In this document: piece by piece, positions 8,964 through 24,295 of the stretch | Numbering within the stretch: the first letter of the stretch is position 1 | How the letters are laid out: every line of letters begins with the position of its first letter | Origin: Alloyangia pacifica | GTDB taxonomy: Bacteria; Pseudomonadota; Alphaproteobacteria; Rhodobacterales; Rhodobacteraceae | Direction: 5' to 3' | Assembly: GCF_020524285.1 (NCBI RefSeq) | Contig: NZ_JAIVKX010000004.1 | Span: forward strand, 186,001 to 250,000 | Length of the DNA stretch: 64,000 nt | Position numbers and translations under genes: made by a program | The notes under the pieces: generated by a model | What the model was told of the DNA's origin: nothing | Database searches by the model: none | The model's input: the letters and a program-made list of their open reading frames with translations, nothing else

Positions 8964-10784
<1,821 letters not shown>

Positions 10785-11021
10785 TTCGGCCTCTCCGTCT
10801 GTATCAGTGCAAACGCTAAAGGCAGCTTGCTCAAACTGTCAAACCCAAGCGCCACCTGACCCAAAGGCAATGCTTGCATTTTGCGCGTGTTCTGCTTCGA
10901 TGGCCCGCAAGCGGGATGAGAGTGATCTTAATGTCTGGCTCCAAGAGGCCGGATAGACTTCATTTTCCGCTGATACAAAGAAGAGACCAACCGGTCTTAG
11001 GTCGATAACAGGGAGTGACCT

Positions 11022-12731
11022 ATGAAAATGAAAACCCTTCTGCTCGGGGCCGCAGCCAGCTTTGCGCTGGCCCCCGCCGCTGCCATGGCGGAGCGCGGCT
11101 CGGACGGGCACGTGAACATCATCTACTGGCAGGCGCCGTCGATCATGACGCCCTATCTGTCGAGCGGTACCAAGGACATCGAAGCCTCCTCGCTCGTGCT
11201 CGAGCCCCTCGGCCGCTACACCGAGACCGGCGCGCTGGTGCCCTTCCTGGCCGAAGAGATTCCCACCGTCGAGAACGGCGGCGTGTCCGAGGACCTGAAG
11301 TCGATCACCTGGAAGCTGAAAGAGGGCCTGCTGTGGTCCGACGGTTCGCCGGTGACCTCGGCCGACGTCAAGTTCACCGCCGACTACTGCATGAACCCCG
11401 AGGGCGGCTGCGCGCAACTGGCCAAGTTCGACCACATCGCCTCGATCGACACCCCTGACGATCTGACCGTCGTGGTGAACTTCGACGAGGCCATGCCGAA
11501 CCCCTACGGCCCCTTCATGGGTGGCCAGTCCCCGATTCTGCAGAAGGCGCAGTTCGAAAACTGCGTGGGCGCCGCGGCGTCGACCTGCACCGAGGCCAAC
11601 TTCAACCCGATCGGCACCGGCCCCTTCGTGGTCGACGAGTTCAAGCCGAACGACGTGATCTCGCTCTCGGCGAACCCCAACTACCGTGACCCGGCGAAGC
11701 CCGCCTTCGCGACCGCCACGCTGAAAGGCGGCGGCGATGCGGAATCCGCGGCCCGCGCGGTTCTGCAGACCGGCGAGTTCGACTACGCCTGGAACCTGCA
11801 GCTGGCGCCCGACGTCCTTGCCTCCATGGCAGAAGGCGGTCAGGGCACCCCGGTCTCGGCCTTCGGCACCCTGGTTGAACGCCTCGAGATGAACATGACG
11901 GATCCCTCGCCGAACCTGCCCGAGGGCGAGCGCGCCACCGTGGCGCATCCGCACCCGATCCTGTCCGATTTCAACGTCCGCAAGGCCCTGTCGATGGCCA
12001 TCGACCGTCCGCTGCTGACCGAGATCGGCTACGGCCAGGCCGGCCGTCCGACCTGTAACCTCGTGCCCGCGCCCGAGCTCTACGCCTCGGACAACACCGA
12101 GTGTCTGACCCAGGACCTCGAAGGCGCCAAGGCGCTGCTCGAGGAAGCCGGCTGGACCGACAGCGACGGTGACGGCATCCGCGAGAAGGACGGCGTGAAG
12201 CTGAGCCTGCTCTACCAGACCTCGACCAACGCCGTCCGCCAGGACTTCCAGGCGCTGATCAAGGATTGGTGGCGCCAGATCGGCGTCGAGACCGAACTGC
12301 GCAACGTCGACGCCTCGGTGTTCTTCGGCGGTGACCCGGGTTCGCCCGACACCTTCCAGAAGTTCTACGCGGACGTCGAGATGTACGCGAACAACTTCGA
12401 CGGCACCGACCCGCAGTCCTATCTGCAGATGTACCGCTGCGGCAACGAGCCGAAGCCGTCCTCGCAGTGGCAGGGTGAGAACATCAACCGCTTCTGCAAC
12501 GAAGAGTACGACGCGCTCCTCGACGAGCTTGCCAAGACCGGCGAGCTGAGCAAGCGCGGCGAGATCGCCAAGAAGCTGAACGACATCATTACCAAGGAAA
12601 CGATGACCATCGTTCCGCTGGTCGACCGTGGTCGTGTCTCGGCGCATTCCAACACGCTCGGCGGTGTCATCCTGAACACCTGGGACAGCGAACTGTGGAA
12701 CGCGGCCGACTGGTACCGCATCGAAGGCTGA
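11022..12731 (+). CDS. peptide ABC transporter substrate-binding protein
   Basis: A 569-residue family 5 solute-binding protein of the peptide/nickel type. It begins with a cleavable signal peptide (MKMKTLLLGAAASFALAPAAAMA, cleavage after AMA), so the mature protein is periplasmic. Family landmarks include WKLKEGLLWSDGSPVTSADV and NVRKALSMAIDRPLL. A good AGGGAG ribosome site lies eight bases before the ATG. It is followed by a hairpin at 12744-12770 and then by the two permease genes, which fits the common pattern of higher expression of the binding protein than of the membrane parts. Substrate unknown, probably oligopeptides. Confidence 0.92.
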   Translation: MKMKTLLLGAAASFALAPAAAMAERGSDGHVNIIYWQAPSIMTPYLSSGTKDIEASSLVLEPLGRYTETGALVPFLAEEIPTVENGGVSEDLKSITWKLKEGLLWSDGSPVTSADVKFTADYCMNPEGGCAQLAKFDHIASIDTPDDLTVVVNFDEAMPNPYGPFMGGQSPILQKAQFENCVGAAASTCTEANFNPIGTGPFVVDEFKPNDVISLSANPNYRDPAKPAFATATLKGGGDAESAARAVLQTGEFDYAWNLQLAPDVLASMAEGGQGTPVSAFGTLVERLEMNMTDPSPNLPEGERATVAHPHPILSDFNVRKALSMAIDRPLLTEIGYGQAGRPTCNLVPAPELYASDNTECLTQDLEGAKALLEEAGWTDSDGDGIREKDGVKLSLLYQTSTNAVRQDFQALIKDWWRQIGVETELRNVDASVFFGGDPGSPDTFQKFYADVEMYANNFDGTDPQSYLQMYRCGNEPKPSSQWQGENINRFCNEEYDALLDELAKTGELSKRGEIAKKLNDIITKETMTIVPLVDRGRVSAHSNTLGGVILNTWDSELWNAADWYRIEG

Positions 12732-12743
12732 TCCTGTGACACG

Positions 12744-12778
12744 CACGCCCCCGCCCGACGCGGGGGCGTGCCCCTTTT
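12744..12778 (+). terminator. intrinsic terminator or attenuator after the binding-protein gene
   Basis: An 11-bp perfect stem, CACGCCCCCGC at 12744-12754 and GCGGGGGCGTG at 12760-12770, with a five-base loop and then CCCCTTTT. It begins 12 bases after the stop codon. The permease genes continue in the same direction 227 bases later, so it may terminate only part of the transcripts. Confidence 0.7.
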
Positions 12779-13004
12779 CGGAAGGTCTGCCCGTGACCTC
12801 ACCTCTCCGGAACCCCGACCTCGGCCCGCGCGGCCGGTCTCCCGCCCCGGCCACCGCCGCTTCCCGGCGACAGCCGGCGCCGCAGCACGGGCCCAACACC
12901 AAAGACACGGAATACATGACGCACACAGCCCGTATCCCCGCGCCGTGCCGGCCGCTGCCCCTGCAGCCGCAGCGCCGCCGCTCCCCCGCCCGCGAGGTCC
13001 GCCC

Positions 13005-14042
13005 ATGCTAACCTATGCGATCCGCCGCCTCGTCCTTTCGATTCCGACGCTGCTGTTCATCAGCTTCGTGATCTTCATGCTGCTGCAGCTCGCGCCGGGC
13101 GATCCCATGGCGCAGGTGCCGCTGACCGTGCCGCCCGAGGTGAAGCAGAAGATGCGCGAGGCGCTCGGCGTCGGCGAGCCCGCCCTGGTGCAATACTGGA
13201 AATGGCTGGTGCAGGTCTTCTGGACCGAACCCAAGATCTTCATCGACTGGCTGACCAACGACAGCTTCCTGCTCGGCTGGCTGCCCGACACGCATCTCTA
13301 CAACGGCGAGCTGCGGGTGATCTCGTGGCAGACCCGCTCGCCGGTGATGGACATCGTGCTGCAGCGTATCCCGCAGACCCTCTGGGTCGTCGGCCTGAGC
13401 TACATCGTGGGCGTGCTGATCGCCCTGCCCATCGGCATCTACTCGGCCTACCGGCAGTACTCGGTCTTCGACCAGGCCGGCACCTTCATCACCATGGTCG
13501 GCTTCTCGATCCCGCCGTTCTTCACCGGCCCGCTGCTGATCGTGATCTTCTCGGTCTACCTCGGCTGGTTCCCGTCGATCTACGACACCACCCACGTGGT
13601 GAATGACTGGGAGAGCTTCAAGTTCCAGCTGATGCAGATGATCATGCCGGTCATGGTGCTGGCGCTGCAGACCACGGCGCAGCTGTCGCGCTACATGCGC
13701 GCCTCGATGCTCGACAACCTCAACCAGGACTACGTGCGCACCGCCCGTGCCAAGGGCCTGTCGGAAGCCGTGGTTGTGATGATCCACGTGCTGCGCAACT
13801 CGATGATCCCGGTGATCACCGTGATCGCGCTCGGCGTGCCGGCGATCTTCGGCGGCGCGATCATCACCGAGAACGTGTTCAAGGTGAACGGCATCGGCCA
13901 GCTTCTGATCACCGCGCTCTTCGCCAACGACCTGCCGATGGTGATGACGCTGACCTTCATCTTTGCCGTGCTGATCGTGGCCTTCAACCTGATCGCCGAC
14001 ATCCTCTATGGCCTTCTCGACCCGAGGATCCGCTATGACTGA
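13005..14042 (+). CDS. peptide ABC transporter permease (DppB type)
   Basis: A 345-residue inner membrane permease. The N-terminus MLTYAIRRLVLSIPTLLFISFVIF is the typical first membrane helix of DppB/OppB proteins, and the EAA loop that docks the ATPase is visible as RTARAKGLSEAVVVMIHVLRN near residue 245. The start at 13005 is preceded by GAGG nine bases upstream; a longer frame reaching back to 12768 is low-complexity and is rejected. It pairs with the next permease, whose start overlaps its stop by eight bases. Confidence 0.92.
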   Translation: MLTYAIRRLVLSIPTLLFISFVIFMLLQLAPGDPMAQVPLTVPPEVKQKMREALGVGEPALVQYWKWLVQVFWTEPKIFIDWLTNDSFLLGWLPDTHLYNGELRVISWQTRSPVMDIVLQRIPQTLWVVGLSYIVGVLIALPIGIYSAYRQYSVFDQAGTFITMVGFSIPPFFTGPLLIVIFSVYLGWFPSIYDTTHVVNDWESFKFQLMQMIMPVMVLALQTTAQLSRYMRASMLDNLNQDYVRTARAKGLSEAVVVMIHVLRNSMIPVITVIALGVPAIFGGAIITENVFKVNGIGQLLITALFANDLPMVMTLTFIFAVLIVAFNLIADILYGLLDPRIRYD

Positions 14043-15015
14043 GCCCGTTCCCGCCTCCCCCGCCCCGATCGAGGCCCTGCGCGACAAGGGCCCCGACAAG
14101 CCGCCGCGCTCCAAGTGGAAGGATGTCTGGGCGCAGTTCCGCAAGCACAAGGGTGCCATGGTCGGGGCCTTCTTCCTGATCTTCATCACCCTCGGCGTGC
14201 TCATCGGTCCCTACATCTGGACGCTCGATCCGCAGGCGCTGGACATCCGCGCCAAGGACATGCGGCCGGTCTACACCGCGCTCTGGGACAGCACGGCCAA
14301 GACCGGCTGGGCGCACCCGCTGGGCTCGGACCAGCTCGGGCGTGACAACCTCGCGCAGCTGATCGCCGGCGGGCGGGCCTCGATGGCCGTGGGCTGGGCG
14401 GCGATGATCCTGTCGCTGGTGATCGGCGCCGGCATCGGCGTTCTGGCGGGCTACTTCAAGAAGCTCGACGGGCCGCTGATGCGTCTCACGGACCTGTTCC
14501 TGAGCCTCCCGATCCTGCCGCTGCTGCTGGTCGCGGTGACGCTGTTCCGCCAGCCGCTGCGCGCCAACTTCGGCCCCGAGGGCGGCATGTTCATCCTCAT
14601 CGTCACCGTGGTCGGCATCACCTCGTGGATGCCCACGGCGCGCATCGTGCGCGGCGACGTGCTGGCGCTGAAGGAACGCGAGTTCGTGCTGGCGGCGCGC
14701 TCGATCGGCACCAAGCCGTTCCAGATCATCAAGCGCCACCTGCTGCCCAACGTGCTCTCGCCGATCATGGTCTCGGCGACGCTGGGCCTCGCCACGGCGA
14801 TCATCACCGAGAGCGCCCTGTCGTTCCTCGGCGTGGGCTTCCCGTCGGACTTCCCGACCTGGGGCAAGATGCTGGCCGACGCGGTGGCGCGGATGGAGGA
14901 CTTCCCCGAGCGGGTGATCCTGCCCGGCATCGCGATCTCGCTCACCGTGCTCGGCGTGAACTACCTCGGCGACGGCCTGCGCGACGCGCTCGACCCGCGC
15001 ATCCGCGGCCGCTGA
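14035..15015 (+). CDS. peptide ABC transporter permease (DppC type)
   Basis: A 326-residue DppC/OppC-type permease, the second membrane subunit of the importer. A short cytoplasmic N-terminal region rich in Pro and Lys is followed by the helix GAMVGAFFLIFITLGVLIGPYIW, the family region HPLGSDQLGRDNLAQLIAGG and an EAA loop LAARSIGTKPFQIIKRHLLPN. The ATG at 14035 lies inside the end of the upstream gene (ATGACTGA), showing translational coupling. The transcript ends at the strong terminator at 15044. Confidence 0.92.
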   Translation: MTEPVPASPAPIEALRDKGPDKPPRSKWKDVWAQFRKHKGAMVGAFFLIFITLGVLIGPYIWTLDPQALDIRAKDMRPVYTALWDSTAKTGWAHPLGSDQLGRDNLAQLIAGGRASMAVGWAAMILSLVIGAGIGVLAGYFKKLDGPLMRLTDLFLSLPILPLLLVAVTLFRQPLRANFGPEGGMFILIVTVVGITSWMPTARIVRGDVLALKEREFVLAARSIGTKPFQIIKRHLLPNVLSPIMVSATLGLATAIITESALSFLGVGFPSDFPTWGKMLADAVARMEDFPERVILPGIAISLTVLGVNYLGDGLRDALDPRIRGR

Positions 15016-15043
15016 GCGGCACGCCAGCGGGGTCCGCCATCTG

Positions 15044-15074
15044 GGGCGGGAGGCATCGGCCTCCCGCCCTTTTT
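15044..15074 (+). terminator. intrinsic terminator of the peptide transporter operon
   Basis: Perfect 11-bp stem GGGCGGGAGGC (15044-15054) and GCCTCCCGCCC (15059-15069), loop ATCG, then TTTTTC. It lies 29 bases after the last permease gene. Confidence 0.9.
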
Positions 15075-15125
15075 CTTGCGCACTCCGCCTGCGCCCATCG
15101 CTGTGCAGGCGGCGCTGCCGGAGGT

Positions 15126-15199
15126 GCGTATTTGGAAAGAGAAGAAGACCCGGGAGCCCCAAGGCCGCGCGCGGTCCCTTCTTCTCTTTGAAAATACGC
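15126..15199. repeat. long-armed inverted repeat, copy R3
   Basis: Left arm 15126-15147 reads GCGTATTTGGAAAGAGAAGAAG; right arm 15178-15199 is its near-perfect reverse complement, ending in AAAATACGC. About 30 GC-rich bases separate them. The arms recur at 34237-34319, and the left arm alone recurs at 28670-28690. It sits between the convergent permease and mrcA genes. Confidence 0.75.
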
Positions 15200-15300
15200 C
15201 GGGGTGAATTGGCCAACGGGACGCCAAGGTGCGCCACCGGTCCAAGCGCCGATGGCGACGAGGGGCGGCGCCCCTCCGCCCCTCGCCACAGAGCCTTCGC

Positions 15301-15331
15301 AAAAGAAAAGGCGGAGGGTTTCCCCTCCGCC
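15301..15331 (-). terminator. intrinsic terminator of mrcA
   Basis: On the minus strand a 9-bp stem GGCGGAGGG/CCCTCCGCC (15310-15318 and 15323-15331) with loop GAAA is followed by TTTTCTTTT. It begins 30 bases after the mrcA stop. Confidence 0.85.
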
Positions 15332-15360
15332 TCGTCGATCTCACTAACCCGTAGCGCCGC

Positions 15361-17898
15361 TCAATAGAGCCCGCCCGAGCTGAGTGTGCCGAAGGAGGCC
15401 TTCGGACCCACCGTCGCCTTGCGCCCGGTGGAGGTGGTGACCTCGCGCGGGCGGGTCGAGCCGTCGGGCTGGATCATGTCGAAGTTGCCCGACATCGCCC
15501 AGCCGCCGTCGAGCTGCACGCCGAAGAGCGGCTCCTCGCCCGAGCGGAAGCATTCCGCAACGACGTTCGGACCCGTGGCGTCCGGCCCCAGCCGCGCGCC
15601 GGTGAAGCGGTCCATGTTGAGGAAGTTGCACGCGGGCGGCACCTTGAACTGGCCGCCGCCGTATTTCTCGACCGCCTTGAGCATGAACCGGTTGAACACC
15701 GGTCCGCACATGCCGCCGCCCGAAGCGCCCCGGCCCAGCGGCCGCGGCGTGTCGTAGCCGATGTAGCAGCCCGCCACGATGTTCGAGGTGAAGCCAAGGA
15801 ACCACACGTCCTTGGCATCGTTGGTGGTGCCGGTCTTGCCGGCGGTGGGCACCGGCAGGTTCACCGTCCGCGAGGCGGTGCCGCGTTCGACCACGCCGCG
15901 CATCATCGAGGTGAGCTGGTAGGCGGTGACGCCATCCATGATCCGGTCGCGGTTGTTGCGGATGTCGGGGCCCCGGCCTGGCGGCAGGTTCGGATCGGCG
16001 CAATCGAGGCAGGTGCGCTCGTTGCCCTTTTCGTACTCGTGGTTGTAGACGGTGCGGCCGTAGCGGTCCTGCACCCGGTCGACCAGCGTCGGCTCGACCC
16101 GTTCACCGCCGTTGGCGAACATCGCGTAGGCCGAGATCATCTTGTAGAGCGTGGTCTCGTCGGCGCCGAGCGCATTGGCCAGCACCCGCCCCATGTGATC
16201 GTAGACGCCGAATTTCTCGGCGTAGCGCGCCACCGTGTCCATGCCGATCTCCTGCGCGAGGCGGATGGTCATCAGGTTGCGCGACTGCTCGATCCCGGTG
16301 CGCAGCGGCGTCGGGCCGTAGTAGGTGTTCGAGGCGTTCTTCGGGCGCCACACGCCCTGCGGCGTGTTGATCTCGATCGGGGCGTCGATGATGATCGTCG
16401 AAGGCGAGAAGCCCGAGTCCAGCGCCGACGCGTAGACGAAGGGCTTGAAGCTGGAACCCGGCTGGCGCAGCGCCTGGGTGGCACGGTTGAACACCGAGTT
16501 CTGGTAGCTGAAGCCGCCCTGCATGGCGATCACCCGGCCGGTGTTCACATCCATCGCCATGAAGGCGCCCTGCACGCGCGGCACCTGGCGCAGCGTCCAG
16601 CGGATGAAGTCGCCGGTCTGATCCTCGGTCATGGCGCGCACGTGCACCACGTCGCCGCGCGCGAAGTTGTCGCGGAAGCTGCCCGAGATCCAGCTGATGT
16701 CATTGCGCGGCACCACCGTGGGGCGCTCTGCGGTGTCCTCGACGCCTTCGATGCCGAGCCGCATCTGCTGGTCGCCGACCTCGAGCACCACCGCCGGGTA
16801 CCATTGGCTGTCGAGGTCGATGTCGCGCGCCACGGCCACGGAGGCCAGCGCGTCGCGCCAGGCCTGTTCCGAGCCGAGCTGCTCTTCGGGGATGGTCTTG
16901 CCGGTGCCGCGCCAGCGGCCCAGGCTGCGGTCGTAGTCCTCGAGCGCGGTGCGCAGCGACTTGGCCGCCTCGACCTGCATCTCGGGGTCCAGCGTCGCGC
17001 GCACCGACAGGCCGCCCGAGAAGAACTCGCCCTCGCCGAACTGGTCGGTGAGCTGGCGGCGGATCTCGTCGGTGAAATAGTCGCGCGGCGGCAGCGCGTC
17101 CTGGTACGGCGGGTAATCCCCGTTCTGCACCGATTTCAGCGGCTGCGCGACGCTGTACTCGAAGGTCGCCTCGTCGATGTAGCCGTTCTCGAGCATCTCG
17201 CGCAGCACGTAGTTGCGGCGCTGGGTGACCCGCTCCTTGGCGCGCACCGGGTGATAGCGGCCCGGCGCCTGCGGCATCGAGGCCAGCATTGCGGCTTCGT
17301 GCGGCTCGAGCTCCGTGAGGGTCTTGTTGAAATAGGTCTGCGCCGCGGCGGTCACCCCGTAGGAGTTCTGGCCGAGAAAGATCTCGTTCAGGTAGAGCTC
17401 GAGGATTTTGTCCTTGCTCAGCGTTTCCTCGAGCCGCGAGGCAAGGATGATCTCCTTGATCTTGCGCTCGATCTTGCGGTCGCCCGACAACAGGAAGTTC
17501 TTCATCACCTGCTGGGTGATGGTCGAGGCGCCGCGCACCTCGCGGCCGCGCGTGCGCACTGCCTCGACCACGGCGGCGGCGATGCCGCGCACGTCGTAGC
17601 CGTGGTGCTCGTAGAAGTTCTTGTCCTCGGCCGAGATGAAGGCCTGCTTCACCATGTCGGGGATCTGGTCCGCCGGGGTGAACAGCCGCCGCTCCTGGGC
17701 GAACTCGTCGATGACCTGGCCTTCTTGCGAGTAGATGCGGCTGATCGTCGGCGGGGTGTATTGTGCCAGGCTCTCGTGGCTCGGCAGGTCGCGGCCATAG
17801 ATCCAGAACACCGCGCCGATGGACAGCGCGATCGCCATCAGCCCGAGGGTGATGACGCTGAAGATGGCTCCGAAGAAGGAGAAGATGAACCTGATCAC
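15361..17898 (-). CDS. mrcA: penicillin-binding protein 1A, class A
   Basis: An 845-residue bifunctional peptidoglycan synthase: glycosyltransferase plus transpeptidase. One membrane helix at the N-terminus (FIFSFFGAIFSVITLGLMAI) is followed by the family 51 transferase domain with ISAEDKNFYEHHGYD (catalytic Glu) and GASTITQQVMKNFLL, an OB-like insert, and the transpeptidase with SSFK and KTGTTNDAKDVWF. I choose the GTG at 17898, which has a GAGAGG ribosome site eight bases upstream, over an in-frame ATG at 17928. It stands alone with a plausible promoter just upstream. Confidence 0.93.
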   Translation of the reverse strand: MIRFIFSFFGAIFSVITLGLMAIALSIGAVFWIYGRDLPSHESLAQYTPPTISRIYSQEGQVIDEFAQERRLFTPADQIPDMVKQAFISAEDKNFYEHHGYDVRGIAAAVVEAVRTRGREVRGASTITQQVMKNFLLSGDRKIERKIKEIILASRLEETLSKDKILELYLNEIFLGQNSYGVTAAAQTYFNKTLTELEPHEAAMLASMPQAPGRYHPVRAKERVTQRRNYVLREMLENGYIDEATFEYSVAQPLKSVQNGDYPPYQDALPPRDYFTDEIRRQLTDQFGEGEFFSGGLSVRATLDPEMQVEAAKSLRTALEDYDRSLGRWRGTGKTIPEEQLGSEQAWRDALASVAVARDIDLDSQWYPAVVLEVGDQQMRLGIEGVEDTAERPTVVPRNDISWISGSFRDNFARGDVVHVRAMTEDQTGDFIRWTLRQVPRVQGAFMAMDVNTGRVIAMQGGFSYQNSVFNRATQALRQPGSSFKPFVYASALDSGFSPSTIIIDAPIEINTPQGVWRPKNASNTYYGPTPLRTGIEQSRNLMTIRLAQEIGMDTVARYAEKFGVYDHMGRVLANALGADETTLYKMISAYAMFANGGERVEPTLVDRVQDRYGRTVYNHEYEKGNERTCLDCADPNLPPGRGPDIRNNRDRIMDGVTAYQLTSMMRGVVERGTASRTVNLPVPTAGKTGTTNDAKDVWFLGFTSNIVAGCYIGYDTPRPLGRGASGGGMCGPVFNRFMLKAVEKYGGGQFKVPPACNFLNMDRFTGARLGPDATGPNVVAECFRSGEEPLFGVQLDGGWAMSGNFDMIQPDGSTRPREVTTSTGRKATVGPKASFGTLSSGGLY

Positions 17899-17926
17899 GA
17901 GCAATGCCTCTCTGGATTGCAGCCCC

Positions 17927-17953
17927 ATTATACTGCGAGGGGCTTCAGGTCAA
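17927..17953 (-). promoter_or_regulatory. candidate mrcA promoter
   Basis: On the minus strand TATAAT occupies 17927-17932 and TTGACC occupies 17948-17953, a 15-base spacer, ending 29 bases before the mrcA GTG. A perfect -10 hexamer is unusual in this GC-rich region; the spacer is short, so the -35 assignment is weak. Confidence 0.45.
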
Positions 17954-18197
17954 AACACATAGGTGCCAAGAGCCGGAGACAAGCGCCAGGCTGCCTTTGG
18001 GCAGCAAACTGCGGTCGCACAGGCGGGGTGCTGGCGGGCTGCGGGCGGGGTGGCGGAATACCTTACACCTCTCGCGATGGATTTTTTCGCCAATTCGCGC
18101 TAGGGTGGTGAGGATTTTAGACGAATTGATTGCACTGCTCACCGGCTTCGCGCCGGGAGACCTTGTCTTGTTGCTCTGCCGTTCCGCGGGGGGTCCG

Positions 18198-19928
18198 ATG
18201 CGTGTTTATGAAGCCATTGTCGAGGCACTCGAAGATATCGGGGTCGACGCGGCCTTTGGCGGTGCCGGAGAGAATGCCGCTGGCCTCATGCTGGCGCTGG
18301 ACGCCTCGAAGACCATCCGCCCCATCCTGGCCAAGAACGAGCAGGCGGCGGCCTTCATGGCCTGCGGCTACGCGATGTTCTCCGACCGGCTGGGCGTGTG
18401 TTTCGCCACCGCCGGTCCCGGGGCGTTCAACCTGATTTCCGGGCTCTGCGTGGCGCTGACCGACAGCTATCCCCTGCTGGCGATCAGCGGCTATTCCACA
18501 GTGGCCTGGGAGGGACGCGGCGGGCTCAACGAGACCTCGGGCCGCGCCCGCACGCCCAATTCGCACATGATGTTCGACGCCTGCTGCAAGACCGATCCGG
18601 GCACCGGCAAGCCCGCCAACTACCTGGTGACCGATCCCGCCAAGCTGATCGACACGCTGGAGCACGCCGTGCGCGTCGCCTTCGAGGGGCGTCCGGGCCC
18701 GGTGCACCTCGCCATCGCCGAGGACATCACCGCGCGCAGCGTCACGGTGCCGAACTTCCGCCGCCTCGAGGTGCGCCCCGATCCGGTGCCGCCCGACCCG
18801 GCGCAGCTCGAGGCCGCTGGGAACCTGCTCGAAGATGCGCTGGAACGCGGCGACAGGGTCTGCGTGCTGGCGGGCTTCGGGGCGATCCGCGCGGGGGCCG
18901 GCGATGCGCTGCGCCGCTTCATCGAGCGCTTCGAGCTGCCTTTGCTGACCACGATGGACGGCAAGGGCATCGTCGACGAGCAGCACCGCCTGGCCATCGG
19001 CATCTTCTGCGACAGCGGCCACAAGGCGGCGCGCGATATCTGGGAGGACAGCGACCTGGTGCTCGCCATCGGCAATTCCTTTGCCCAGCACGCGACCTTC
19101 GACTTCAACGAGGAGCTCTTCGAGGGCAAGCAGCTCATCCATGTCAACATCGACCCCGGCGAGATCGACAAGGTCTACCGGGTGGATGCGGGCGTGGTCG
19201 CCGATGCGAAACTGGCCATCACGGCGCTGCACGCGCGGCTCGACAAGAACGTCGGCCCCCGCCCGGAGATCGACTACCGGCCCAAGGACTACGACGAGCG
19301 CTTCGTCATAGGTCTGCACAAGGGGCTGCACCCGGGGCGCATGGTGCAGGCGATCTCGCGCAACCTGCCGCCGCGCGGCGTGGTGTTGACCGACGCCGGG
19401 GCGCATGCCGCCTGGTGCGGCTACTACCTCGAGATGCGGGACGGTCAGAACTTCCGCAAGCCGGGCACCTACGGGCCGATGGGCATCGGCGTCTGCGGCG
19501 CGCTGGGGGTGAAGTTCGGCGATCCCTCGCGCCCGGTGGTCGCCGCGGTGGGCGACGGCAGCTACCTGATGATGGGCTTCGAGCTGATGACCGCCGTCGC
19601 CCATGACATCCCGGTGGTCTGGGTGATCTTCAACGACGGCGAGTTCAAGCTGATCAAGCTCTACCAGCTCTCGGCGTTCTTCGACACGGCGCTGACGGAG
19701 TTCGAGAACCCCGACTGGGTGGCCTACGCCCATGCCTGCGGCGCCGAGGGCTACCGCGCCGACGACGAGGACGAATTCGAGGAGGCATTCCGCAGGGCCA
19801 TCGCCTCCGGCAAGCCGACGCTGATCGACGCGCGGATCACCCGGCTCGCCCTGCCCCACTACAGCCCGGACCCCGAGGGCATCCTCTCGGCGCTCTGGAA
19901 CGGCATAAGGGAGAGGATCGGTGTCTGA
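18198..19928 (+). CDS. thiamine diphosphate-dependent enzyme (ALS/2-hydroxyacyl lyase-like)
   Basis: A 576-residue ThDP enzyme with the PYR, central and PP domains in order. The catalytic Glu is Glu48 in AKNEQAAAFMACGYA, and the cofactor motif is GDGSYLMMGFE at 452-462 with Asn479-Asp480 27 residues on, so both sites look intact. The superfamily includes acetolactate synthase, benzoylformate decarboxylase, oxalyl-CoA decarboxylase and 2-hydroxyacyl-CoA lyase; I cannot assign one. The ATG at 18198 starts exactly at the usual first helix; the frame is open upstream but that part is unlike the family. Its stop overlaps the next start by eight bases, coupling it to the dioxygenase-like gene. Confidence 0.8.
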   Translation: MRVYEAIVEALEDIGVDAAFGGAGENAAGLMLALDASKTIRPILAKNEQAAAFMACGYAMFSDRLGVCFATAGPGAFNLISGLCVALTDSYPLLAISGYSTVAWEGRGGLNETSGRARTPNSHMMFDACCKTDPGTGKPANYLVTDPAKLIDTLEHAVRVAFEGRPGPVHLAIAEDITARSVTVPNFRRLEVRPDPVPPDPAQLEAAGNLLEDALERGDRVCVLAGFGAIRAGAGDALRRFIERFELPLLTTMDGKGIVDEQHRLAIGIFCDSGHKAARDIWEDSDLVLAIGNSFAQHATFDFNEELFEGKQLIHVNIDPGEIDKVYRVDAGVVADAKLAITALHARLDKNVGPRPEIDYRPKDYDERFVIGLHKGLHPGRMVQAISRNLPPRGVVLTDAGAHAAWCGYYLEMRDGQNFRKPGTYGPMGIGVCGALGVKFGDPSRPVVAAVGDGSYLMMGFELMTAVAHDIPVVWVIFNDGEFKLIKLYQLSAFFDTALTEFENPDWVAYAHACGAEGYRADDEDEFEEAFRRAIASGKPTLIDARITRLALPHYSPDPEGILSALWNGIRERIGV

Positions 19929-22764
19929 CGGAGGAGATGGCGGCCTGCAGGCCGGAACCGCGAAGTGGAAGGAAACCTACCGCGGCGGCTCGCCCGAGGC
20001 GGAGCGGGCGGAGTTCGTGGCATTGACCGACCTGATGCTCGACGCGCAGCTCAAGTCGCGCAAGGCGGCCAAGGCGCGGCGCGTCGACCGCGCCTTCCAT
20101 GCCAAGTCGATCGCCGCCTTCTCCGGCGCGACCCTGCGCTTTGCCGACACGCTGCCCGACGAGCTGCGCGTCGGCTTCGCCCAGCCTGGCGCCAGCTATC
20201 CGGCCAGCGTGCGCTTCTCCAACGCCGCCTCTGTCCCCAAGTCCGACGAGGAGAAGGACCTGCGCGGCCTTGCGGTGCGGGTGAGCGTTGCGGACGACGA
20301 GCAGCACGACCTGCTGGCCACCAACTGGCCGGTGCCGCACGCCCGCGACGCGCATCAGTTCGTGCATTTCGCCCACGCCGTCTCGGGCGGCACCCTGTCA
20401 AAGGCCTTGGGGCTGGCGGGGCTCTGCCGCAGACTCGGGCTCGGCGAGGTCCGGCGGATGCTGGCCAACGTGCGCGAGGCACTGCGCACCTGCGACAGCG
20501 TGGCGCTGGAAAGCTACTGGAGCCGCGGCGCCATCCGTTGGGGGAACGAGGCCGTGCGCTATGCCTTCAAGTCCGCGCGCGGCACGCCCGGCGCCTTTCC
20601 CGCCACCGGGGCGGCGCGGCTTTCCAGCGAGTTCGCGCAGCGCATTGCCGCGGCGGATGTCACCTTCGAGCTCTACGTGCAGCGCTTCGTCAGCGAGCAC
20701 CTCACCCCCATCGAAAACGCCGCGCAGGAATGGGCGGAGCGCGACAGCCCGGCCATTCTCGTCGCCACGCTCATCCTGCCGAGGCGCGACCTCACCAGCC
20801 CGGACGCGATCGCCGAGCAGCGGGCGCTGGACGACGGCGGCTTCAACCCCTGGAACACCACCGAGGACTTCCGCCCGCTCGGCCACCTCAACCGCGCGCG
20901 CAAGGCGGTCTACGACGGCTCGCTGCATCATCGCACGGCGCTGCGCTGGCGCGCCGAGCGTCCGCCGCTGCAGAACCGGGTTTTCGGCAGCGGCGCCCGC
21001 TGGGCGCTGCGGCAGGCCAACACGCGCGTGCCCTGGCACCGCATGCCGCTGCTTGTGAGCCTGCTGAACCTCGACGCGCTGCGCCACGACCTGCGGGTGA
21101 AGAACCTGATCGACACCGAGCCGCGCGAGGCCCCGCCCAGCGCCCGCTCCCTGCCCCCGGCGAGCCCGCCGGAAGAGCTGTCGTTCCGCACCTACGACGG
21201 GCGCGCCAACGACCTCAGCGATCCGCAGATGGGCGCGGTGGGCGCCGCCTTCGGGCGCAACATGCCGCTCGAGACCATCCCGCCCGACGAGCCCAATGCC
21301 GTCACCGTCTGCCGCGAGCTGATGGACCGCAAGACCTTCATCCCGGCGCGCACGCTCAACATCCTCGCCGCGGCGTGGATCCAGTTCCAGGTCCACGACT
21401 GGGTGGCACACCAGCGCCGCAAGCTGGGCGAGCAGGACCTCGTGGTGCCGATCCCCGGCAAGTATCCCGACTGGACCTCGCGTCCCGGTGGCGAGATGGG
21501 CCGCGAGATGCGCATCTCGGGCAATGTCCCCCACCCGCGCGCGACCGACCCTTGGGTCTTTGCCAATACCACCTCGCACTGGTGGGACGGCTCGGAGGTC
21601 TATGGCGCGGACAGCGCGCGCGCCCGCTCGCTGCGCGACGGCGCGAAGATCCGGCTCAACGATGCGGGCTACCTGCCCGAGGGCGTCGATGGCATGTCGA
21701 TGACCGGCTTCAACGAGAGCTGGTGGATGGGACTGTCGGTCATGCACACGCTCTTCGCCCGCGAACACAACGTGCTGGTGGACGAGCTGCGCCGCGCCTA
21801 CCCGCATTGGGACGACGAGCGGCTCTACCAGACCGCCCGGCTGATCGTCTCAGCGCTGATCGCCAAGATCCACACCGTCGAATGGACCCCGGCGATCCTC
21901 GGCACCGAGGCGCTGGACATCGGCATGAAGACCAACTGGTACGGCCCACCGTCTGGCGATTGGCTGACCAGGCTCGGCATCTGGCTGACCGACGTGCATG
22001 CGCTCAAGGGCATTCCCAAGACCATGCCCGACCACCACGCCGCGCCCTACTCGCTAACCGAGGAGTTCGCCACGGTCTACCGCATGCACCCGCTGATCCC
22101 GGACGACTACATCTTTTACGACTACGCCACCGGCAAGGAGAGGCAGCGCAAGGGGTTCCTCGACATCCAGGGCGCACAGGCCGACAACGAGATGCGCGAC
22201 ATCGGCATGCGCGATGCGCTCTATTCCTTCGGCACCGCCCATCCCGGCGCGATCACCCTGCACAACTTCCCGAGATCGCTGCAGCATTTCGAGCGCGAGG
22301 GCGAGGTGATCGATCTCTCGGTGGTCGATATCATGCGCACCCGCGTGCGCCGGGTGCCGCGCTACAACGGCTTCCGTCGCGGGCTGCATATGCCAGAGAT
22401 CAAGTCCTGGGACGATCTCACGCCCGATCCCGGCACGAACCGCCTGTGCCGCGAGATCTATGGCAAGCTCGACAATGTCGACACCGTGGTCGGGCTGCTG
22501 GGCGAGGCGCCGCCCACCGGCTTCGGCTTTTCGGACACGGCCTTCCGCATCTTCATCCTGATGGCCTCGCGCCGGTTGCAGTCGGATCGCTTTCTCACGG
22601 TGGACTTCCGCCCCGAGATCTATTCGCCGCTCGGCATGGACTGGATCGCGCGCAATTCCATGACCAGCGTGATCCTGCGCCATTGCCCCGAACTGGGACC
22701 GGTGCTGCCACGCGATGCCACCGCTTTTGCACCCTGGCGGACCGTGCCGGGAATGGGAGGCTGA
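19921..22764 (+). CDS. catalase-like / alpha-dioxygenase-like haem peroxidase fusion
   Basis: A 947-residue two-haem-domain protein starting at a GTG. Residues 1 to about 380 look catalase-related: His60 in FHAKSIAAFSGA matches the distal His, RFSNAAS and DLRGLAVRV match the core, and Arg327-Tyr331 in RARKAVY match the RxxxY proximal ligand. Residues from about 415 resemble animal haem peroxidases, closest in wording to plant fatty-acid alpha-dioxygenases: distal His492 in QVHDWVAHQ, HWWDGSEVYG, MHTLFAREHNVLVDEL, HTVEWTPAIL, and YRMHPLIPD giving catalytic Tyr720 and proximal His723 (as Tyr385/His388 of cyclooxygenase). A dioxygenase joined to a hydroperoxide-processing haem domain would make and convert fatty-acid hydroperoxides. 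Substrate and product are inferred. Middle gene of a coupled trio. Confidence 0.82.
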   Translation: MSDGGDGGLQAGTAKWKETYRGGSPEAERAEFVALTDLMLDAQLKSRKAAKARRVDRAFHAKSIAAFSGATLRFADTLPDELRVGFAQPGASYPASVRFSNAASVPKSDEEKDLRGLAVRVSVADDEQHDLLATNWPVPHARDAHQFVHFAHAVSGGTLSKALGLAGLCRRLGLGEVRRMLANVREALRTCDSVALESYWSRGAIRWGNEAVRYAFKSARGTPGAFPATGAARLSSEFAQRIAAADVTFELYVQRFVSEHLTPIENAAQEWAERDSPAILVATLILPRRDLTSPDAIAEQRALDDGGFNPWNTTEDFRPLGHLNRARKAVYDGSLHHRTALRWRAERPPLQNRVFGSGARWALRQANTRVPWHRMPLLVSLLNLDALRHDLRVKNLIDTEPREAPPSARSLPPASPPEELSFRTYDGRANDLSDPQMGAVGAAFGRNMPLETIPPDEPNAVTVCRELMDRKTFIPARTLNILAAAWIQFQVHDWVAHQRRKLGEQDLVVPIPGKYPDWTSRPGGEMGREMRISGNVPHPRATDPWVFANTTSHWWDGSEVYGADSARARSLRDGAKIRLNDAGYLPEGVDGMSMTGFNESWWMGLSVMHTLFAREHNVLVDELRRAYPHWDDERLYQTARLIVSALIAKIHTVEWTPAILGTEALDIGMKTNWYGPPSGDWLTRLGIWLTDVHALKGIPKTMPDHHAAPYSLTEEFATVYRMHPLIPDDYIFYDYATGKERQRKGFLDIQGAQADNEMRDIGMRDALYSFGTAHPGAITLHNFPRSLQHFEREGEVIDLSVVDIMRTRVRRVPRYNGFRRGLHMPEIKSWDDLTPDPGTNRLCREIYGKLDNVDTVVGLLGEAPPTGFGFSDTAFRIFILMASRRLQSDRFLTVDFRPEIYSPLGMDWIARNSMTSVILRHCPELGPVLPRDATAFAPWRTVPGMGG

Positions 22765-22765
22765 G

Positions 22766-24145
22766 ATGAAGGATCACGATCACGCCCGCTCCGGCCTCGC
22801 GGCCTTCCTGCAGGAGCCGCTCGCCAGGGTGCTCTGGTCGCGCCGCACGCGCCGGGTGCCGCGCGGCTACAGCGTGCCGGCTGGCTCAGCCTCCTACAGC
22901 TCAAAGAACGAGCCCCTGCCGCTCAGCAAGCTCGAGGAGGCAATCCTCATCGCCGCCACCGGGGCCACCGGGCTCACCATGCCCGACCGCCCGTGGCAGG
23001 ACGATCAGACCGGCGATCCCATCATGTCGAAGCCGAACCTCGTGATGGAGGGGCGCACCGCCGGCAGCCCCGACAATGCGCAGGGCACCTATTTCTTCAT
23101 GATCAACGACGAGGGCACCTATTTCATCCGCCACCTGCCGCCGCCGGACCCCGGCACCGACCCGTGGTCGGAAGAGCTGCTGCTGGCCCGCGCCGAGGCT
23201 GCCAAGGTCCGCATCCTCGACCGCCGCATCGACGTGCCCTCCGGGATGCGCGACTTTCCGGCCTATCTCGATTCCAACCGCTTCCTGTCGAACCGCCCCG
23301 GCACGACCGTCTTCTTCCCGGTCGTGGACCTGTCGCACCAGTACATCAACGGGCTGATGTACCTGCTCACCCAGCCGGAAAAGGCCCGCCCCGCGCTGAT
23401 CGACGACCGCAACTTCTACCGGCCCGCCGGCACGAAAAAATGGATCAAGAACGGCTTTCTCAACAAGGACATCAAGCTGCCGCTCGGCGTGGTCTACCAG
23501 ATGCGCACCGAGATCGAGGCGAGCCTGCTGGTGCAGAACCTCTTCCTGGTCACCGAGGCGCTGGGGCTCGGCGCGTGGATCCACGGCGCGATCTCTCCGC
23601 CGGTGCTGATGGGCGATCCCAAGTTCCGCGGCACCTTCGGCACCATGCTCGGCTTCGACTACGTCTCGCCGAAATGGCGGTTCATGGACCTGCTGCGCTG
23701 GCACACGCTGCCGGTCAGCGCGATGAAACACGTGCGCAGCCATGCCATCGGGCTGCGCCACCACGGCGAGGCGCTGATCAAGTGCAAGTGCCCGCCCAAT
23801 TACGCCTCGATGGCCGAGGCGGTCGACGCCGTGGTTGATGGCAAGTTCGGCCCCGGCGGGCTCTACAAGGATCCCGCCGTTTTCGAGCGCATCTACAAGG
23901 GCGATTTCGGCGCGCGCTACCTGTCGGAGGCGGCGGAATATGAGGCGGATGTGATCGCCTGTTGCCGCGACATCTGCAGCTACATCCACGACACCCACGG
24001 CCGCTTCCCGGCCCATTGCGAGGCCATCCACGCCCCCGGTATCTTCTTGCAGGCCCATCACGTCGAGGAAGAGTACTACGAGCAGGTCTTCCGCAATGGC
24101 ATGACGGATCGGCAGGCGGAGCACATGGCGCGCTGGCATTCCTGA
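22766..24145 (+). CDS. nitroreductase-like protein of unknown function
   Basis: A 459-residue protein starting one base after the stop of the dioxygenase fusion (TGAGATG). I do not recognise a named family for the whole. Two parts resemble nitroreductase-fold flavoproteins: the N-terminal SYSSKNEPLPLSKLEEAILI (residues about 46-65, a phosphate-loop and dimer helix pattern) and SLLVQNLFLVTEALGLGAWI further on, which is the usual FMN-side helix. The C-terminal part has a cluster of Cys and His (KCKCPPNY, ACCRDICSYIHDTHGRFPAHC, QAHHVEEEYYEQVF) that could bind metal. Coupling suggests it works on the same substrate as the two genes before it. Confidence 0.55.
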   Translation: MKDHDHARSGLAAFLQEPLARVLWSRRTRRVPRGYSVPAGSASYSSKNEPLPLSKLEEAILIAATGATGLTMPDRPWQDDQTGDPIMSKPNLVMEGRTAGSPDNAQGTYFFMINDEGTYFIRHLPPPDPGTDPWSEELLLARAEAAKVRILDRRIDVPSGMRDFPAYLDSNRFLSNRPGTTVFFPVVDLSHQYINGLMYLLTQPEKARPALIDDRNFYRPAGTKKWIKNGFLNKDIKLPLGVVYQMRTEIEASLLVQNLFLVTEALGLGAWIHGAISPPVLMGDPKFRGTFGTMLGFDYVSPKWRFMDLLRWHTLPVSAMKHVRSHAIGLRHHGEALIKCKCPPNYASMAEAVDAVVDGKFGPGGLYKDPAVFERIYKGDFGARYLSEAAEYEADVIACCRDICSYIHDTHGRFPAHCEAIHAPGIFLQAHHVEEEYYEQVFRNGMTDRQAEHMARWHS

Positions 24146-24205
24146 GCATGCGGTAGCGGGGATTTGGGGCTGCGCGTCGGCAGTGGCGGAGCTGCGCGAT
24201 GGTCG

Positions 24206-24295
24206 TGGCGGAGGCTCAGGGATTCGAACCCTGGGGACGCTCTCACGCCCAACGGTTTTCAAGACCGCCGCATTCGACCACTCTGCCAAACCTCC
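24206..24295 (-). tRNA. tRNA-Ser (anticodon UGA)
   Basis: A 90-base gene including an encoded 3' CCA. The acceptor stem GGAGGTT pairs with AGCCTCC (one G-U pair), with discriminator G. The anticodon loop CTTGAAA gives anticodon TGA (plus-strand 24259-24261), the T loop GGTTCGAATCC is canonical, and the long variable arm GGGCGTGAGAGCGTCC is typical of serine tRNAs. Confidence 0.95.

Follow-up and report, generated by a model that had tools for sequence, protein, structure and literature searches.

The window, the whole 64,000-nucleotide stretch of DNA analyzed here, harbors a tight unit of three genes (Table 1), the middle one of which encodes a 947-residue protein (the window protein) that is predicted to fuse two haem domains. 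The single frame of this length anticipated by the original prediction is indeed present, with a GTG start, just 5' of which lies GGGAGAGG. The fusion gene overlaps the preceding gene, coding for a ThDP-dependent enzyme, by 8 bp, and the ATG of the succeeding gene, coding for a conserved partner protein that we call NRL, lies one base past the fusion stop. A search of the stretch for sigma-70-type promoters gave no match, where chance alone would yield 0.4.

Table 1. Features of the three-gene unit and its downstream flank in the window
Feature	Coordinates	Strand	Remarks
ThDP-dependent enzyme, 576 aa	18198..19928	+	ATG at 18198; mechanical ORF from 17904
Catalase-related domain/alpha-dioxygenase fusion, 947 aa	19921..22764	+	GTG start
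Catalase-related haem domain, residues ~1-345 (predicted)	19921..20955	+	R57, F59, H60, R98, N135, R327, Y331, R338
Alpha-dioxygenase domain, residues 367-947 (predicted)	21019..22761	+	R388, H492, H651, W655, T656, Y720, H723, R885
NRL, conserved partner protein, 459 aa	22766..24145	+	Weak nitroreductase-like signature
tRNA-Ser (TGA anticodon)	24206..24295	-	Downstream flank, outside the three-gene unit

Pfam searches recovered two domains alone in the window protein, namely An_peroxidase over residues 422-925 (E 2e-93, 314 bits against a cut-off of 25) and Catalase over residues 35-154 (E 1.8e-9, 37.6 bits against a cut-off of 25). A lipoxygenase or a P450 as the partner domain was rejected, as Pfam found neither in the fusion. 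The top PDB matches of residues 367-943 are plant alpha-dioxygenases (4hhr, E 1.3e-97; 4kvj, E 2.1e-97), which bears out the assignment of the C-terminal part to this type. Because these alignments cover residues 367-943, the second domain starts at around 367, not at 415 as first proposed, and the C-terminal half includes the N-terminal part of the stand-alone alpha-dioxygenases. The claim that the N-terminal part is catalase-related likewise holds: in addition to the Pfam match, a profile made from 20 of the N-domains retrieved 3e4w as its best PDB match (E 1.1e-17), with haem catalases next. The former entry, listed in the PDB as a 'putative uncharacterized protein', is in all likelihood the mycobacterial MAP-2744c, which we take to be an organic-peroxide-dependent peroxidase; unlike the window's N-domain it stands alone, without a dioxygenase. 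By these profile and structure-database matches, one bacterial frame joins a catalase-like haem domain to a complete alpha-dioxygenase. A chance or shadow ORF is ruled out by the Pfam and PDB matches together with conserved full-length relatives in several phyla.

All six residues named in the original prediction as ligands (His60, Arg327, Tyr331, His492, Tyr720 and His723) are present in the window protein. We aligned 85 fused proteins, comprising that of the window, four from plasmid loci and 80 from genome loci; they form a mutually dependent sample, in which some members are identical (e.g. L035 and L087). In the alpha-dioxygenase domain R388, H492, H651, W655, T656, Y720, H723 and R885 occur in each of the 85, the conservation of H492 being partly conditioned by the use of WIQFQVH as one retrieval pattern for the genome relatives. 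Counted on the alignment, they correspond respectively to R57, H157, H311, W315, T316, Y379, H382 and R559 of the rice alpha-dioxygenase, as named in the excerpted text of PMC8720084. Thus, the distal and proximal histidines and the catalytic tyrosine of the rice enzyme (H157, H382 and Y379) are retained as H492, H723 and Y720, and its carboxylate and C2-positioning residues (H311, R559 and T316) as H651, R885 and T656, without exception.

In the catalase-related domain R98, R327, Y331 and R338 are found in all 85 proteins, with R327 and Y331 constituting the R-x-x-x-Y proximal motif of the catalase superfamily. The distal side shows more variation: R57 and H60 are each seen in 81 proteins, with Gln replacing H60 in the other four, and the distal N135 is kept in 63 and replaced by Ser in 21 and by Gly in one. 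The residue beside His60, Phe59 in the window protein, is F in 71, Q in 7, V in 3, L in 3 and I in one. The four proteins that lack H60 (L071, L081, L105 and L110) are also those with Ala in place of R57; they belong to one Actinoplanes clade and are among the 19 fused loci with neither the ThDP nor the NRL partner. This joint loss is only a hint, as it amounts to a single evolutionary event. Overall, the N-domain is the more variable, with a median identity to the window of 49.4% against 62.2% for the C-domain.

The ThDP enzyme contains all three of the TPP_N, TPP_M and TPP_C domains above the Pfam cut-off. Its nearest solved structure in the PDB search is BbmA (8xod/8x3x, E 8.4e-77), with BbmA and CsmA being the closest solved ThDP enzymes. 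In the fusion-linked homologues, a conserved Glu, which we take to be the ThDP-site Glu, is seen in 42 of 43 (the remaining one having a gap) and the GDG motif in all 43. NRL weakly resembles the nitroreductases, as suggested by marginal profile matches: Pfam Nitroreductase has no match above its cut-off in the window NRL but matches 27 of 38 NRL members weakly (best E 0.0033); the NCBIfam nitroreductase model matches one of the 38 (E 0.049), beside unrelated weak matches; and a local hhalign comparison with nitroreductases gave 58.7% over a 30-residue helix, against at most 0.7% for two negative controls and 0.2% in global mode. Profile searches found no solved structure for NRL.

Across the 85 fused loci, NRL is encoded in 65, and in 62 of these it follows the fusion in the same orientation. 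A ThDP gene of the window type is present in 43: on the strand of the fusion, it lies upstream in 30 and downstream in 10, and three loci have it on the opposite strand. Hence, this type of ThDP gene is missing from 42 loci and NRL from 20, counts that include some contigs ending nearby. Another kind of ThDP gene lies no more than 4 kb away in at least five further loci (L086, L090, L092, L099 and L112), and a RoxA-like cytochrome c gene of the L035 type occurs, without a ThDP gene, in four. Patatin-type genes match in 12 loci, with 10 of the matches being strong and upstream and two weak and distant.

The linkage of NRL to the fusion extends to other replicons: among 72,556 plasmids a close NRL homologue is found in 16 records, which are exactly the 16 that carry the fusion over at least 80% of its length. 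Three more plasmid records have distant homologues (28-30%), and no neighbors common to these three were found. Close homologues (63-64%) are seen in two of 296 actinomycete genomes (G531 and G613), both of them fusion carriers; the fused centre genome (G385) has no such close homologue, and distant ones (29-34%) occur in five other actinomycete genomes. At the DNA level, in a comparison with eight loci chosen from 80, six (L041, L042, L043, L045, L067 and L080) match the window from 18193/18198 to 24081/24108 and then stop, i.e. at the unit borders. A Nitrococcus contig (L040), which is without the window-type ThDP gene, matches 19857-24015, up to the contig end, and the Salipiger mangrovisoli locus (L039) is collinear with window DNA from 9917 to 24146. 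In eight genomes of the same family compared over the PBP1A region, DNA similarity ends at ~17900 or earlier and no tRNA was found within flanks of ~1.5 kb.

A tblastn search of the same 72,556 plasmids with the fusion matched 57 records, 16 of them covering 80% or more of the query at a single location; these 16, at 54-60% identity, belong to Rhizobium, Phyllobacterium and Nonomuraea. We also scanned the contigs of 84,980 species genomes (by the dataset description) with two patterns, one per domain, both of which favor the window-type fusion. This yielded 202 confirmed relatives, of which 80 were kept, all matching nearly full length, starting no later than residue 22 and reaching at least residue 939, and coming from Pseudomonadota, Myxococcota and Actinomycetota. 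The nearest named relative among the 80 kept of 202 is from Salipiger mangrovisoli (89%). A fusion private to this genome is ruled out by these plasmid and genome relatives, the architecture being a common one in the databases.

Sampling by clade pointed to a patchy distribution, as expected for horizontal transfer. Of 20 genomes of the genus, three have the fusion, which in one of them contains an internal TAG, and two have a stand-alone relative that is 44-45% identical. In 385 genomes of the window's class, a full-length match occurs in the window's own genome only; in its phylum, six of 398 genomes have an alpha-dioxygenase at E <= 1e-60 and the window's is the only one so fused. A 954-aa frame in G1016 carries a C-terminal extension that is not catalase-like. 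In a draw of actinomycete genomes, 28 of 394 have an alpha-dioxygenase at the same threshold, and in six of the 28 a catalase domain lies in front (59-63% identity, frames of 960-1120 residues), although these six include the draw's centre genome, G385, which was picked for being fused. The other matches in this draw are 43-49% identical, one of them (G567) being a fusion in the reverse order. The domain check in this draw covered the six frames with the catalase domain in front; a further open frame, G744:C12, is 942 aa long.

Phylogenetic trees were built for the two domains. The C-domains of 37 fused proteins, taken as representatives, part from those of 24 stand-alone alpha-dioxygenases on a single branch with 100/100 support. 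In the N-domain tree, the same number of fused representatives form one group (100/100) that leaves out 17 other catalase-like domains, whether free, LodA-linked or reverse-order, although a warning of the tool notes that the joining of the fused group with the LodA group may be a long-branch artefact. Distances within the N- and C-domains are correlated (r 0.90, permutation maximum 0.33, n=37). The simplest reading would be one fusion event followed by transfer between phyla.

A second pairing of the two domains, in the opposite order, came from a survey of 201 genomes of one actinomycete family drawn around G567. An alpha-dioxygenase gene is followed immediately by a catalase-like gene in seven of these (G537, G1311, G1273, G1245, G1293, G1164 and G1216, with the alpha-dioxygenase in two pieces in the last), and the two are fused in the order alpha-dioxygenase-catalase in two (G567 and G1296, with open frames of 989 and 1004 aa). 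With three genomes having the catalase-like gene alone at this cut-off and 10 the alpha-dioxygenase alone, a total of 22 of the 201 show any match. In G537 and G567 the catalase-like part shows 29-30% identity to the window N-domain, and in the N-domain tree both cluster with free catalase-like proteins, apart from the window type. As read from these comparisons, the reverse-order pairing is independent of the window-type fusion. Since adjacent genes together with a reversed fusion are its classical sign, a functional couple is indicated.

We also compared the neighborhoods of 24 stand-alone alpha-dioxygenases, one of which (L166, from G537) is an adjacent catalase-like case. FAD-linked oxidases of two types are encoded in eight of them (L036, L164, L165 and L168; L038, L171, L172 and L173), a benzoylformate-decarboxylase-type ThDP gene in five (L036, L156, L164, L165 and L168), and a RoxA-like/di-haem cytochrome c gene in four (L038, L119, L174 and L175). 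At L036, the oxidase resembles GlcD, a glycolate oxidase, with a score of 394 bits where the curated cut-off is 568, and the ThDP enzyme exceeds the cut-off for benzoylformate decarboxylase (634 against 493). At L038, the oxidase looks closer to the sugar-lactone oxidases than to the 2-hydroxyacid oxidases, and the cytochrome exceeds the cut-off for di-haem cytochrome c peroxidase (195 against 150). Both FAD oxidase types and the P450 type of L036 are found in none of the 85 fused loci; these comparisons with the stand-alone loci, including the contrast of 0/85 with 8/24 for the oxidases, involve related genomes and unequal flank lengths and count in the loci that supplied the queries. The cytochrome type of the stand-alone loci is present in four of the fused loci. 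These contexts suggest a shared plan, in which C2 oxygenation would lead to a 2-oxo acid and thence to a ThDP enzyme, and further suggest that the fused catalase domain may perform a step for which other loci use separate redox proteins.

In light of the above, we propose that the window protein might be a two-haem enzyme of fatty-acid alpha-oxidation, which would convert its 2-hydroperoxide in cis and feed the product to the ThDP enzyme, a proposal that we hold to be evenly poised. Its individual steps differ in their likelihood. Going by family membership and residue conservation, the fusion very probably has alpha-dioxygenase activity, with a Y720 tyrosyl radical in the C-domain oxygenating C2 of a fatty acid to yield the 2(R)-hydroperoxide. 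The N-terminal haem, with Tyr331 as its ligand and His60 and Asn135 on the distal side, would accept the hydroperoxide in cis, and we lean towards the N-domain acting on it productively. Heterolysis of the O-O bond might then give Compound I and a 2-hydroxy acid. Catalases oxidize small alcohols through Compound I, and for this reason the conversion of a 2-hydroperoxide to a 2-oxo acid is chemically reasonable: we prefer the option that the 2-hydroxy acid undergoes two-electron oxidation in the same pocket, with release of the 2-hydroxy acid as the fallback, though a 2-oxo acid as the product is a tentative suggestion. Decarboxylation of the 2-oxo acid by the ThDP enzyme would leave an acyl-anion equivalent, from which a Cn-1 aldehyde or an acyloin would arise, and NRL could conceivably be a flavin-type redox partner.

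Context, namely the operon, the independent second pairing and the absence of the FAD oxidases from the fused loci, favors a division of labor in which a 2-hydroperoxide would be made by one half and converted by the other. The last of these arguments is weakened by one FAD type looking nearer the sugar-lactone oxidases, by the relatedness of the genomes, by the unequal flanks and by the inclusion of the query loci. The proposal as a whole draws further support from the domain identities, the conserved residues, the 100/100 clades, the correlated domain distances and the loss of H60 and R57 solely in an Actinoplanes clade without either partner. Against it stand the absence of the ThDP gene from 42 and of NRL from 20 of the 85 loci, the replacement of the distal Asn in 22, and the four fused loci with a RoxA-like cytochrome c gene in place of the ThDP gene.

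A different role for the catalase-like domain would be to guard against H2O2 or stray peroxide near the alpha-dioxygenase, an enzyme both activated by peroxide and sensitive to it, without productive processing of the 2-hydroperoxide. The catalase fold with its distal His and Asn is consistent with such a role, as is the presence of the same domain family N-terminal to LodA-type oxidases in three loci (L015, L025 and L030), since LodA-type oxidases produce H2O2. However, in both aligned LodA-joined proteins (L015 and L025) the distal His is a Phe, and we accordingly rejected these proteins as a model for H2O2 removal. Moreover, the tight linkage to the ThDP and NRL genes, and the loss of His60 only where both are missing, suggest a pathway step, and the residue beside His60 is mostly Phe (71/85), neither the Thr found in cAOS, the catalase-related allene oxide synthase of corals, nor the Val of the T66V variant of that enzyme. 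We consider a purely protective function rather unlikely.

It is also conceivable, if still less probable, that the N-domain is a lyase, which would split the 2-hydroperoxide into CO2 or formate and a Cn-1 aldehyde that serves as the acceptor for the ThDP enzyme. 2-hydroperoxides lose CO2 unaided, so little would be gained by such an activity, and the decarboxylating ThDP enzyme would require another 2-oxo acid. On the other hand, catalase-related hydroperoxide lyases fused to lipoxygenase are described from corals in the quoted part of PMC5617202, and a Nostoc catalase-related lyase encoded by a separate gene acts on the product of a 10S-dioxygenase according to the sections seen of PMC13049297. 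Finally, the natural substrate might be something other than an ordinary fatty acid, such as a polyketide or an aryl-alkyl carboxylic acid, with the unit belonging to specialized metabolism. The patchy spread across phyla, with many Streptomyces and rhizobial plasmids, would fit this; however, the carboxylate-binding residues of the alpha-dioxygenase are intact in all 85 proteins and 10 of the loci have strong matches to patatin-type phospholipases upstream, making it quite improbable.

Returning to the in-cis conversion that we prefer, the joining of a fatty-acid dioxygenase to a hydroperoxide-handling haem domain is of a kind already known. The plant and cyanobacterial alpha-dioxygenases (At/Os alpha-DOX, CalDOX and LepDOX) resemble the full-length C-domain in ligands, catalytic Tyr and carboxylate residues; however, they stand alone, whereas the window protein has a catalase-related domain in front. 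The coral cAOS/hydroperoxide lyase-8R-lipoxygenase also combines an N-terminal catalase-related haem domain with a C-terminal fatty-acid dioxygenase (PMC5617202, from its partial text, also for what follows). By motif and spacing, R64, H67, R102, N137, Y353 and R360 of cAOS correspond to R57, H60, R98, N135, Y331 and R338 of the window protein, which are retained in 81, 81, 85, 63, 85 and 85 of the fused proteins, respectively, and Thr66 to Phe59. The fusion partner of cAOS is a lipoxygenase and its hydroperoxide 8R, in contrast to the cyclooxygenase-superfamily alpha-dioxygenase and the expected 2-hydroperoxide of the window protein. The Nostoc punctiforme 10S-dioxygenase and its catalase-related 10S-hydroperoxide lyase likewise bring together a bacterial cyclooxygenase relative and a catalase-related protein, but as separate genes, with another dioxygenase and another position of oxygenation (PMC13049297, parts available). 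In the fungal DOX-P450 proteins (linoleate diol synthases) the dioxygenase, again of the cyclooxygenase superfamily, is joined to another haem domain by which the hydroperoxide is turned over; this second domain is a C-terminal P450 rather than an N-terminal catalase-related domain (PMC13049297 and PMC4420034, in the portions at hand).

As far as the literature was searched, the catalase/alpha-dioxygenase combination, its operon and its spread are undescribed: no report of such a fusion was found among the matches listed, in open-access titles and abstract openings, which agrees with the suggestion in the original prediction that no bacterial enzyme with this pairing had been described. For the family tree of Kim et al. 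the N-terminal alignment columns 0-368 were trimmed, with the nature of the removed extensions left unstated, and the main text of that paper nowhere uses the word catalase (PMC8720084). The few assayed bacterial alpha-dioxygenases named in the literature, so far as its partial texts go, are all cyanobacterial.

Bacterial alpha-oxidation of fatty acids is hardly explored, and the same fusion in a conserved gene cluster of many unrelated bacteria suggests an uncharacterized route of fatty-acid oxidation and shortening or rebuilding. With an operon of this spread and apparent mobility, centred on a catalase/alpha-dioxygenase fusion, 2-oxygenation in bacteria would become directly testable in the culturable genera Ruegeria, Rhizobium and Streptomyces. 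The operon could also supply enzymes for odd-chain aldehydes or acyloins, and would offer a further natural example of the catalase fold having its chemistry adapted to an organic hydroperoxide. A more speculative extension, which we think unlikely, is that of a self-contained, horizontally transferred pathway leading from fatty acids through 2-oxo acids to long-chain acyloin signals or volatiles, in which a dedicated ThDP carboligase would couple the acyl unit left by decarboxylation with an aldehyde, the pairing having arisen at least twice and in both orders; if true, this would make the catalase domain the first known dehydratase of 2-hydroperoxides, forming a 2-oxo acid. Where the fusion is annotated in the databases, it is labeled a 'peroxidase family protein'.

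Four actinomycete loci (L036, L164, L165 and L168) encode a stand-alone alpha-dioxygenase in a compact cluster with a benzoylformate-decarboxylase-type ThDP (thiamine-diphosphate-dependent) enzyme, a FAD-linked oxidase, which is GlcD-like in L036, and a hydrolase; two of the four (L036 and L164) additionally carry a P450. These gene neighborhoods are candidates for a complete alpha-oxidation cluster. In another locus, L155, the alpha-dioxygenase is extended C-terminally by about 300 residues, and this extension showed neither a significant Pfam match nor any likeness to catalase.

Catalase-like domains were also found at the N-terminal side of LodA-type oxidases in three loci from the window's class (L015, L025 and L030). 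In both rows that were aligned (L015 and L025), the distal His, the counterpart of His60 in the window fusion, is replaced by Phe; judging from this substitution, the catalase-like domain joined to LodA-type oxidases in these two loci may have a structural role.

The unit itself shows variation across the fused loci. Four rhizobial loci with the fusion (L035, L079, L087 and L117) lack the ThDP gene; in them two genes, one coding for a RoxA-like cytochrome c and the other small and uncharacterized, separate the fusion from the gene for the weakly nitroreductase-like partner (NRL). In Phyllobacterium sp. A18/5-2 (L032), the ThDP and NRL genes are each split into two annotated frames, hinting that the unit is decaying there or that the sequence contains errors. 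Separately, a fusion copy from the window's own genus (L239) has a TAG inside its frame. Immediately 3' of the three-gene unit in the window lies a tRNA-Ser gene, and similarity to Salipiger mangrovisoli ends at 24146; this downstream border is possibly an integration edge.

Coordinates of features in the window and the compared loci
Feature	Locus	Coordinates
C-terminally extended alpha-dioxygenase	L155	286-3147
Genes between fusion and NRL gene	L035	12822-15084
Split ThDP and NRL genes	L032	8183-9891 and 13138-14254
Fusion copy with internal TAG	L239	G1327:C1:2133202-2136024
tRNA-Ser gene	window	24206-24295
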